Part shown: one piece after another, positions 3,895 through 45,239 of the stretch
How positions within the stretch are numbered: the first letter of the stretch is position 1
Layout of the letters: the number at the start of each line of letters is the position of its first letter
IMG/VR virus record: IMGVR_UViG_3300034093_004958
Location: 1-56,483 of that record
Source: a virus
Strand: one strand, 5' to 3'
DNA length: 56,483 nt
Program-made: the position numbers and the translations under genes
The notes under the pieces: generated by a model
What the model was told of the DNA's origin: nothing
The model's input: the letters and a program-made list of their open reading frames with translations, nothing else
The model's database searches: none

Positions 3895-5475
3895 TTAGCA
3901 ACCAGTTTTTTCTTTATATTCTGTTAGAATAGAAATTACTGATGGAATACTTTCTATTGGTATTTTATTTTCTTCTATTATTTCTAAATTCAAGCATGGA
4001 TTTGAACCGAACTCCAAGAACTGACGAATTATTTCTAATAGGCTAGAATCTTGTGTTTTAATGTATCTGCTGATGATTAAAACTATTGGTGTAAACCTTT
4101 TAGCTCCTGGAGCAAGAGCATTTAGGTTCATTCCTTTTTCTATGAACGATGAAATTAATTCTGAATAGTCTTTATATGATAATGAATCTTCACTTCCATT
4201 TGGGCTTATTTTTATTGATGATATGAAGAATGCAGATTTATTTTCTATTTCTTCTAAATTTTTTGAACTTTTATCATAATTTGGTAAATCCTTTAATACG
4301 ATAAGAGTTTTATATTTCTTTTCATATAATGCCTCTAAAAGAATATTTGATTTTCCATGTTCTTTTGTTCCAGCACCATCAGCACCTTTAGAAATCAGAT
4401 ACTTACACATTTTCATCGTTTCTATATCTTCTTGTTCTAAAGGTAGTGTTGGAGACTTTGAACTTATACACATCATAATAGGAGTCAATCCATTTTCTAA
4501 CTTTTCATTAATAGCTTCTGGATATTTATCAAAGTACGTTTTAATAATTTTTTCATTGAGAGTTTTTAATCCTAAAATCAAAACTTTATCTAGATCTTTT
4601 CTTGAAAGTTTTGAGAACAGATCAGTCTGATAAATCATTGTTGCTATGCTATCAAATTTCTTTTTAGGATCTTGTAAGTATTTATTTAAAAATGAACCGA
4701 GAGAATCTTTTAATACTGGATTATTAGTTTTCCAGAACTCCAAAAGAGATTCTATAAACTGTGGGTGGCTTTTGATAAAATCATCAAAGGAAACTTCACT
4801 ATTCCTATAATCTTTAAATTCAAAGTTCTTTTTTACACCAAGGAATAGTTGATGATTTAACATTTTATCCTTTTTATTATGAAAGATATAAAGAGGTGAA
4901 TCATTTGAATATGTTTCGTAATGCTCCCTTTCATTAGAAGGAGATGCTGTGCACCATTGTGCACCATCACACCAGAATCTAGACTGTGGATATGTAAGTG
5001 GGATTATAATCTGCCATTCAGGATCATCATGTATTTCAATATATTCGTCATGAATAGCAATCTTACTTTTAGCTTTCTTTTCTTTTAATCTTTCTTTTTT
5101 TGAGATATGCAGTTCATTTTCTTGAATGTAACTTGTAACTTCTCTTAGATCATCAAAAGTCTTTGCATTATTTATATTCTTGTATGTATTCTCTATTGGT
5201 AGACGTTGTTTCCCCAAATTATAAATACGTAGAAGTTCTTTGACATTACTTAGTTCAATCTTAAATTCAGAGAAGTCATATTTTTTGTACATATTAAAAA
5301 GCCACTGACGATACTCTTTATTTTCAGTCGGATCTGCATTTAATATTTCTTCACCTAATTCATCAGTCATCTGAACTCCATCTGTAGATGTATATTCAGA
5401 GAAATATGATTTATATAATTCTACATAATTCTTATCTTCAAATAAAAATTCAAACGATTTAAATGAGGTTATCAT
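3895..5475 (-). CDS. capsid-targeted protein with WCTA domain and ankyrin repeats
   Basis: A 526-residue protein. The N-terminus MITSFKSFEFLFED has the form of a T4-type capsid-targeting signal (Phe/Glu-rich amphipathic helix ending in a [LIF]xE site). Around residues 150-200 lies a domain with PLTYPQSRFWCDGAQWCTA followed by LYIFHNKKDK, shared with the 26800-28128 protein. The C-terminal half carries ankyrin-like units (NGLTPIMMCI, YLISKGADGAG, FIEKGMNLNA, FLEFGSNPCL). Ankyrin repeats bind other proteins. If packaged and injected, it could act on host proteins at the start of infection. Packaging is inferred from the N-terminus only. Confidence 0.75.
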   Translation of the reverse strand: MITSFKSFEFLFEDKNYVELYKSYFSEYTSTDGVQMTDELGEEILNADPTENKEYRQWLFNMYKKYDFSEFKIELSNVKELLRIYNLGKQRLPIENTYKNINNAKTFDDLREVTSYIQENELHISKKERLKEKKAKSKIAIHDEYIEIHDDPEWQIIIPLTYPQSRFWCDGAQWCTASPSNEREHYETYSNDSPLYIFHNKKDKMLNHQLFLGVKKNFEFKDYRNSEVSFDDFIKSHPQFIESLLEFWKTNNPVLKDSLGSFLNKYLQDPKKKFDSIATMIYQTDLFSKLSRKDLDKVLILGLKTLNEKIIKTYFDKYPEAINEKLENGLTPIMMCISSKSPTLPLEQEDIETMKMCKYLISKGADGAGTKEHGKSNILLEALYEKKYKTLIVLKDLPNYDKSSKNLEEIENKSAFFISSIKISPNGSEDSLSYKDYSELISSFIEKGMNLNALAPGAKRFTPIVLIISRYIKTQDSSLLEIIRQFLEFGSNPCLNLEIIEENKIPIESIPSVISILTEYKEKTGC

Positions 5476-6882: not shown

Positions 6883-7314
6883 TTAATTTGATCTAAGATA
6901 ATCATATTCACAAGGTATCCATTTAATATATTCGAATAAATAATAAGATGCGATTGTATCATATTCAATTTTATCTATATCTATATTTAATTCTAAAGCA
7001 ATCTTATATCCCCTATCCCAAGCTTCAATCTCATCTTTCATTATTTGGAAAGATGCTATTTTATCAACAGGCTTATTTACACCAAGTTCATGTATCTTCC
7101 AATTTCGTTCTGAAAAAGAGTCATCGAATCTATTCATCATATGACCCAATTCATGTAATATTGAATATAACCAGGTCTTTGTGGGTTTGCTTCTCCATAC
7201 TTCTGTTATTAATCGTTCATTATGATCAAATGACCACATATTACTTTTAATAACTTCTATATTTTCTCTCATACAATAATAACGAATCAATGCATGTGAT
7301 CTTAAGATATCCAT
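6883..7314 (-). CDS. HExxH zinc metallopeptidase-like protein
   Basis: A 143-residue protein carrying SILHELGHMMNRF near residue 52, the HExxH zinc-binding and catalytic motif of zincin peptidases. A downstream Glu in KDEIEAWDRGYKIA could be the third ligand, as in IrrE/ImmA and SprT-type minimal zincins. ImmA-type proteases cleave repressors; a phage copy might cleave a host regulator. No signal peptide, so it acts in the cytoplasm. The substrate is unknown, and it lacks the helix-turn-helix often found with IrrE. Confidence 0.75.
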   Translation of the reverse strand: MDILRSHALIRYYCMRENIEVIKSNMWSFDHNERLITEVWRSKPTKTWLYSILHELGHMMNRFDDSFSERNWKIHELGVNKPVDKIASFQIMKDEIEAWDRGYKIALELNIDIDKIEYDTIASYYLFEYIKWIPCEYDYLRSN

Positions 7315-24887: not shown

Positions 24888-24902
24888 ATTTATAGAACAG
24901 AG

Positions 24903-24950
24903 CGTAAAACCCATCGGTCTTTAGCCGATGGGATGCAAGCGACTAAACCT
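24903..24950 (+). repeat. IS200/IS605-like left-end hairpin
   Basis: Perfect 8-bp stem CCCATCGG / CCGATGGG with loop TCTTTAG, followed by GATGCAAGCGAC. As I recall, subterminal hairpins of this form (CCC..TTTAG..GGGATGCAAGC) mark the left end of IS200/IS605-family transposons and are recognised by the TnpA Y1 transposase. No transposase gene is present in the window. Confidence 0.5.
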
Positions 24951-24978
24951 AAAAAAACGTTCTTTCTATTTAAAAAAG

Positions 24979-25140
24979 TTTGATATATACATTATATGTC
25001 TGAAGATATATCTGGGCAGGGACTGTCCAGTACACGGGTGGAGACTTTAATAAGACTTTGATAGCAAAGCATAAGTCAGCGAAGCCCGAAGCTCATTTTA
25101 GCTTTAGCAAATGGGTAGTTCACGATATATATACATATAT
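24979..25140 (+). ncRNA. orphan TnpB-type guide RNA scaffold (reRNA/omegaRNA-like), candidate
   Basis: A promoter motif TTTGATATATAC (24979-24990) is followed by about 130 nt of compact, less AT-rich, pairing-prone sequence. The end has the form of an IS200/IS605 right end: GCGAAGCCC, a hairpin CTCATTT / AAATGGG (25092-25098 with 25109-25115), then GGGTAGTTCAC ending at 25123. In TnpB systems this segment is the 3' scaffold of the guide RNA and the guide follows it directly, here GATATATATACATATATAAT. One frame reads GTVQYTGGDFNKTLIAKHKS and KPEAHFSF, like a TnpB C-terminus remnant. No TnpB is encoded. Inferred by motif memory; needs covariance testing. Confidence 0.45.
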
Positions 25141-25201
25141 AATCAAGAAGCCTTAATTTTTTTGCTTAATTTTTTTTGATTCACAAGGCTTCTTGATTAT
25201 A
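25138..25201. terminator. long inverted repeat with T-rich loop
   Basis: A perfect 17-bp arm (core AATCAAGAAGCCTT / AAGGCTTCTTGATT, 25141-25154 with 25185-25198) encloses a 30-nt loop with two poly-T runs. It closes the candidate RNA gene and may terminate or protect its 3' end. It is longer than the other terminators in the window. Confidence 0.6.
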
Positions 25202-25215
25202 CTTTTAATAATTCT

Positions 25216-44784: not shown

Positions 44785-45173
44785 GGGGGTGTCATTGGTT
44801 TCGATTAGCTTTTGACGCATCAAGAAGCAACCCGTGCTGATACTCGGTGGAGCACGATAATACAACTGAGTAATTTATAAATGGCAAAAACACACATATT
44901 TTCAATCATTATCCAATGGTTGAAGTATCTCAGAACCAATACGCAATAGCGGCTTGATTCCGAGTGATATAATTTGCGGTCGTTCTCATTATATCACTCG
45001 TCGCTTATAACGACATATATCATAAGAAGCTTTCGTTTTATGAAGAACTTTAGAAAGCACAGTTGCTATCGGCTGCTCTTTGCCTAAATAGATAACTTAT
45101 TATAAAAGAGATATGGTTGTAGTGTTCTAATAACTTGGAAGTTAAGACAGGGGTTCGATTCCCCTCACCTCCA
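44785..45173 (+). ncRNA. ssrA: transfer-messenger RNA (tmRNA)
   Basis: A one-piece tmRNA of about 389 nt. The acceptor stem pairs GGGGGTG (44785-44791) with CACCTCC (45166-45172), discriminator A at 45173; CCA is not encoded. The T arm is AGGGGTTCGATTCCCCT. Pseudoknot PK1 is clear: CGTGCT (44833-44838) with AGCACG (44851-44856), and CTCGGT (44843-44848) with ACTGAG (44865-44870). The tag frame runs from a GGC resume codon at 44883 to TGA at 44955-44957 and codes GKNTHIF...QNQYAIAA, 24 residues. A 13-bp hairpin (CGAGTGATATAAT) follows. With SmpB it rescues stalled ribosomes and tags their products for Clp proteases. Confidence 0.95.
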
Positions 45174-45239
45174 CAAATTTATTTTTTATTATCATTTTAT
45201 TTATTATATTTGTATTAACATAATTTTAAAGGTAATAAA

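Follow-up and report, generated by a model that had tools for sequence, protein, structure and literature searches.

The 56,483-nt stretch of DNA analysed here (the window), an IMG/VR virus contig that resembles a piece of a large phage, carries at 24889-25123 a 230-bp non-autonomous IS200/IS605 element of the PATE/MITE class. Read directly from the sequence in the 5' to 3' direction, the element is comprised of a TTTAT motif, a left-end (LE) hairpin, a phage-type promoter, a complete reRNA scaffold and a right end (RE), GGGTAGTTCAC, followed by the guide, and it is located between two short genes without assigned function. That this is a reRNA-bearing non-autonomous IS605 element is, as a structural statement, close to certain and, judged by its sequence, the scaffold is the reRNA of the TnpB family found in L012, a viral contig. 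We propose that the element supplies a phage-expressed guide RNA that would be used in trans by a foreign TnpB against element-free copies, as a form of retention or gene drive, and we consider this statement, taken whole, to have an even chance of being right.

Both ends of the window element are those of a complete tnpA/tnpB element. In L012, which was found through the RE DNA pattern, an LE at 4889-4932 (TTTATATAACGGAGCGTAAAACCC..GGGATGTAAGCGAC) adjoins tnpA, followed by tnpB and then by an RE at 6996-7030 (GAAGCCC..GGGTAGTTCAC). A preliminary description of this DNA had proposed the order of a TnpB element with its genes removed, and this order holds, as both ends match L012 and the scaffold corresponds to the reRNA of that TnpB family. 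The LE-like hairpin named in the same description is found at 24910-24943, its arms CCCATCGG (24910-24917) and CCGATGGG (24925-24932) being followed by ATGCAAGCGAC to 24943, and it is the only match to the LE pattern within the window. Taken alone, the LE pattern GAGCGTAAAACCC..GGGATGYAAGCGAC has matches in 81 viral stretches, while LE and RE together define 63 elements of 186 bp to 2.5 kb, nearly all of which have TTTAT (or TTGAT) in the same place. The window element shows two features expected of a PATE: its near-terminal LE and RE hairpins are the same as in autonomous IS605 elements (L012 and others), and neither a transposase nor a tnpB gene is present in the window; in 24890-25210, there is no ORF of at least 60 aa.

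The borders can be compared with those of a 1.8-kb sister element in L114, for which a matching empty site is found in L075 (99% over 400 bp). This comparison places the right border just after TTCAC and identifies TTTAT as the left motif, which the empty site keeps, with 8 bp of the junction being ambiguous because they are shared at the border. The 8 bp repeated at the L075 empty site (ACGACGAG) are also the start of the left end of the L114 element. Among relatives of the gene downstream of the window locus, only L009, from the same phage, matched, and no empty allele was found. The limits originally given for the window element, 24903-25201, are corrected to approximately 24889-24894 on the left (TTTAT plus AGAACAGAGCG) and 25123 on the right. 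A 17-bp inverted repeat that had been taken for a transposon end does exist, but it can be ruled out in that role, as the element stops at 25123 and the repeat falls in the flank (Table 1).

Table 1. Positions of the element's parts and of neighbouring features in the window.
Feature	Position	Strand	Basis
TTTAT target / transposon-adjacent motif (TAM)	24889-24893	+	T-T-[TG]-A-T upstream of LE in nearly all 63 LE/RE pairs
Left end (LE): hairpin CCCATCGG-TCTTTAG-CCGATGGG, plus GATGCAAGCGAC	24894-24943	+	Matches LE of complete tnpA-tnpB element L012 4889-4932
Phage-type promoter AAAGTTTGATATATACATTATAT (predicted)	24975-24997	+	Exact copy before scaffold in L008/L011
reRNA/omegaRNA scaffold, derived from tnpB 3' end, without tnpB	25009-25123	+	tnpB homology, covarying structure, model R1
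reRNA helix 1 (CTGGGCAG-GGA-CTGTCCAG)	25012-25030	+	Both-side changes in 5/8 pairs, 19 sequences
Right end (RE) hairpin GAAGCTC (25088)...GGGTAGTTCAC (25113-25123)	25088-25123	+	RE shared with L012 and >119 viral stretches
Guide region (GATATATATACATATATAAT), flanking DNA that would serve as guide	25124-25143	+	Position set by RE boundary
17-bp inverted repeat, flank, terminator-like	25138-25201	.	Arms 25138-25154 / 25185-25201, beyond RE boundary

The guide-RNA-like scaffold of the preliminary description is borne out by both homology and fold. It matches the 3' end of tnpB in L179 (77% identity over 90 nt, E 2e-14) and also several other tnpB sequences, and in tnpB-bearing copies the open frame continues through the scaffold. 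One window frame does resemble a TnpB C-terminus, as had been remarked (IWAGTVQYTGGDFNKTLIAKHKSAKPEAHFSFSKWVVH; compare IISSGTGDYTGGAINKTSFEKHKAVKPEAHLSLANG in L060), yet there is a stop just upstream of it. This stop, together with a 2-nt frameshifting insertion in the scaffold of L008, which is accommodated in a loop and leaves the base pairs intact, rules out a protein-coding reading.

The sequence from 24903 to 25201 folds far better than expected by chance (z -4.0). Across 19 sequences, a 30-pair structure has 95.8% of its cells paired and double changes in 15 of its 30 pairs, with a covariation score of 0.356 compared to 0.141 ± 0.013 for shuffled and 0.05-0.10 for slid controls; none of 500 shuffles reached any of five measures. 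Double changes are also found when only copies without a full tnpB are considered (n = 14; 10 of 24 pairs, mostly in the first and middle helix). At columns 9/27, the window and L008 have C-G in common, with A-U in most relatives. A covariance model of the scaffold, R1, has a seed that includes the window and several mini-elements, and its E-values are rough; the window's score of 112 bits is not independent because the window is in this seed, while matches outside the seed are found in L131 (92.5 bits), L236 (Parabacteroides phage PF672P2, 87.6 bits), and L270 and L276 (91.3 bits).

Rfam models, including those of IscB omegaRNA and HEARO, gave only chance matches at the locus, none of which reached a gathering score, using gathering and permissive thresholds, and a blastn search against phages returned one weak match, leading to a TnpB element. 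The preliminary description had named two outcomes that would speak against a guide RNA, namely that the scaffold resembles no TnpB RNA or that the region matches a different known RNA family; the homology to tnpB 3' ends and the Rfam searches revealed neither. The locus instead has what is expected of a reRNA, namely homology to the tnpB 3' end plus RE and a conserved structured scaffold that ends at the RE border with the guide 3' of it.

As the preliminary description had stated, no TnpB accompanies the scaffold: PF01797 and PF07282 (TnpA and TnpB) are absent from the 56-kb contig, itself a genome fragment. Its genes include a tmRNA, SAM synthetase, IMP dehydrogenase, an ATP-dependent protease, an RNA-ligase-like protein and baseplate proteins. 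The phage-borne tmRNA gene is found at 44785-45174 (+) and encodes the tag GKNTHIFNHYPMVEVSQNQYAIAA. R1 has no match in six huge-phage genomes, two of which carry TnpB of other groups.

The phage-type promoter reported earlier has its core, TTGATATATA, at 24980-24989 and is recurrent before window genes. Allowing at most one mismatch, the core is found on the sense strand before 15 of 72 chosen window genes, compared to 4 on the antisense strand and 3.1 in shuffles (maximum 11 in 50), and because of this difference we regard the motif as recurrent in the phage and, by prediction, plausibly a phage promoter. Given its position directly before the scaffold, the phage could transcribe a stand-alone guide RNA. 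The same promoter is found in L008, L010 and L011, contigs of one phage type whose tail-sheath-like protein is closest to those of 460-735 kb phages. In these contigs, the promoter border and scaffold are 94% identical to those of the window, the flanks are unrelated, and there is no LE, so that the L008 copy is probably not mobile by TnpA. Scaffolds without a left end and without tnpB are also located between phage genes in L093 and L131.

Sister elements were surveyed in viral contigs, many of which are fragments, with viral labels as given by IMG/VR and near-identical copies inflating the counts. The scaffold pattern has 125 distinct occurrences. In 70 of them, tnpB extends for at least 300 bp upstream, a further 16 are located at contig edges, and the remaining 39 include about 4 chance matches (L280, L303, L306 and L312) and some copies with short tnpB remnants. 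When distinct mini-elements were picked by their left end only, a full-length R1 match was found in 19 of 21, some of the 19 having been in the R1 seed, and none of the 21 was ends-only; those outside the 19 are L044 5253-5544 and L094. In the shortest mini-element, L276 (156 bp), almost no sequence separates LE from the first helix. Scaffold retention in 19 of 21 mini-elements and the LE-less promoter-scaffold copy therefore indicate that the RNA, beyond mere ends, is retained. The preliminary suggestion that the locus is kept as an RNA gene gains support from the covariation and from the occurrence of this promoter and scaffold, without an LE, in other phage contigs. The existence of dozens of similar mini-elements in other viral contigs suggests that the guide RNA works with a TnpB from another source. 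A blastn search of one sister mini-element against plasmids gave no match.

The main rival explanation is that the element is an inert PATE mobilised by TnpA in trans, in which the scaffold is a tnpB passenger and the promoter match is accidental, owing to AT-rich DNA, or serves other genes. We consider this unlikely. Haloquadratum has many ends-only and deleted IS605 elements, and such elements are also present in Halanaerobium (PMC3119063, PMC7290912). Scaffolds are damaged in the sisters L082 and L077, and a partner TnpB is not found in the window. However, an inert remnant does not account well for the near-universal full-length scaffolds of the LE-defined mini-elements, for compensatory pairs in copies without full tnpB, or for the conservation of the exact promoter and scaffold in L008 without an LE.

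The AT-rich, guide-like stretch noted earlier is present at 25124-25143; guides of this kind are approximately 16 nt long (PMC8612924). In the contigs tested, no guide target with fewer than 3 mismatches was found beside TTTAT or TTGAT. The leader can pair with the guide both in the window (24990-25014 with 25124-25143) and in L008 (2758-2782 with 2894-2913), and only 1.3% and 0.4%, respectively, of the AT-rich 20-mers drawn from each contig pair with the leader as well as the guide does. Such pairing could close or block the guide, and it comes cheaply because both segments are TATA-rich, promoter-like DNA.

This pairing bears on the next rival, in which the locus encodes an anti-TnpB decoy, a phage RNA that mimics a reRNA and loads host TnpB with a useless guide, thereby shielding phage DNA. 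RNA anti-CRISPRs act on Cas as decoy RNAs in this way. A stand-alone scaffold with a phage-type promoter in phage DNA, a possibly blocked guide in both the window and L008, and guides without a good TAM-flanked target in the contigs tested are consistent with a decoy, but LE, RE and the target motif indicate arrival as a transposon, leader-guide pairing is cheap between such sequences, and TnpB restriction of these phages is without support. Overall, we regard a decoy as distinctly improbable.

A domesticated regulatory guide, whose partner would be a nuclease-dead, TldR-like TnpB that silences a promoter, is more improbable still, to the point of being far-fetched. TldR is a protein encoded together with its guide, and the window contig has no TnpB-family domain and hence no nuclease-dead TnpB beside the guide. 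In L008, the guide region coincides with a phage-type promoter motif that precedes the next gene, and phage-encoded TldR guides are known, those of temperate phages being alike in that the TnpB-derived RNA guide is phage-borne (PMC13418256). Neither TldR nor another TnpB is present in the contigs, though, and the guides have no closely matching TTTAT- or TTGAT-flanked target in those tested.

Use of the guide in trans, the reading we favour, would begin with an internal deletion of a tnpA-tnpB element that spared LE, the complete reRNA scaffold and RE. With the phage-type promoter directly 5' of the scaffold, the phage would transcribe a free-standing TnpB guide RNA during infection, whose 3' guide would be the DNA to the right of the insertion, from 25124. 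A TnpB provided in trans by the host, by a co-infecting element or from phage sequence beyond the contig may load this RNA and cut TTTAT joined directly to the guide sequence, a target presented by the same phage locus without the element, either once the element has been excised or on the genome of a co-infecting phage. The element would be kept or spread when the cut is repaired from the filled copy, and TnpA in trans may also move it. The ends, the covarying scaffold, its retention in sisters and the LE-less promoter-scaffold copies argue for this reading, as do two precedents. In ISDra2, excision leaves a donor joint composed of the TAM and the right flank, which TnpB with its reRNA has been proposed to cleave (PMC8612924). 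Element-free plasmids, in turn, are the target of a gene drive by the TnpB of IS200/605 (PMC11870625). Arguing against it are the pairing of the AT-rich, possibly blocked guide with its own leader, the failure to find a TnpB or an empty allele in the contig fragment and the relatives searched, and some mini-elements that keep tnpB 3' remnants simply as deletion endpoints. The broader proposal, that large phages made TnpB guide RNAs into stand-alone genes with phage promoters, borrowing or disarming the TnpB of hosts or rivals, whether through a gene drive in trans on phages that lack the element or as decoys, is tentative, and we lean somewhat against it.

Palindrome-associated transposable elements (PATEs) of Haloquadratum walsbyi (PMC3119063) and Halanaerobium (PMC7290912) likewise lack genes, have palindromes near their termini and derive from IS605 elements by deletion of the core; a 271-nt Halanaerobium PATE retains the entire RE together with 58 nt of tnpB (PMC7290912). 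In contrast to these, the window element is found in phage DNA, has a complete covarying reRNA with a phage-type promoter in front, and has a related LE-less copy in other phage contigs. ISDra2/IS608-type elements (PMC8612924) share its LE and RE hairpins, a 5-nt target/TAM (TTTAT in the window), a reRNA derived from the tnpB 3' end plus RE, and a guide taken from the right flank, whereas the window element is missing tnpA and tnpB and has its own promoter motif for the reRNA. The plasmid TnpB gene drive (PMC11870625) has the same proposed logic, in which the guide records the insertion site and element-free copies are cut, but in the window case the nuclease would act in trans and the replicon is a phage.

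Within the literature searched, two features are new: PATE-like elements systematically retain a covarying reRNA, and a reRNA is combined with a phage-type promoter into a free-standing RNA gene. Stand-alone omegaRNAs have reportedly been described for IscB. Should the RNA prove to be in use, TnpB nucleases and their guide RNAs would be separable in evolution, and TnpB would be parasitised or blocked in trans by phages and by elements that carry no genes of their own. Use would also account for the retention in mini-IS605 elements of a 115-nt scaffold that is seemingly dispensable for transposition; in Haloquadratum, an ends-only element of 52 bp has apparently moved (PMC3119063). TnpB is the ancestor of Cas12, and the change from transposon guide RNA to free-standing RNA gene would be a step akin to the route toward CRISPR-Cas12. 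The system supplies testable RNA-TnpB pairs.

The survey of sister elements yielded several further observations. The 93-kb contig IMGVR_UViG_3300025839_000011 (L044, L070, L087, L190) has 12 scaffold matches compared to 4 TnpB and 3 TnpA matches, and two related contigs share many of these scaffold matches. Mini-elements in L087, L089, L183 and L190 have left and right flanks that are exchanged among related contigs, the pattern expected if recombination between two copies had rearranged the genome. Related scaffolds with near-identical upstream sequence, different guides and no tnpB (L021, L033, L041) occur three times in one Epsilonproteobacteria genome. By Pfam, IS605-type ends surround GIY-YIG/NUMOD homing-endonuclease-like genes that replace tnpB in L208 (2430-3235) and L102 (26-875, minus strand), and such a gene is found beside tnpB, inside IS605-type ends, in L078 (3292-5793); in all three, the endonuclease-like reading frame extends into the reRNA right end. 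A further ORF, in L084 (3726-4654), is without a Pfam match and appears HNH-like by eye.
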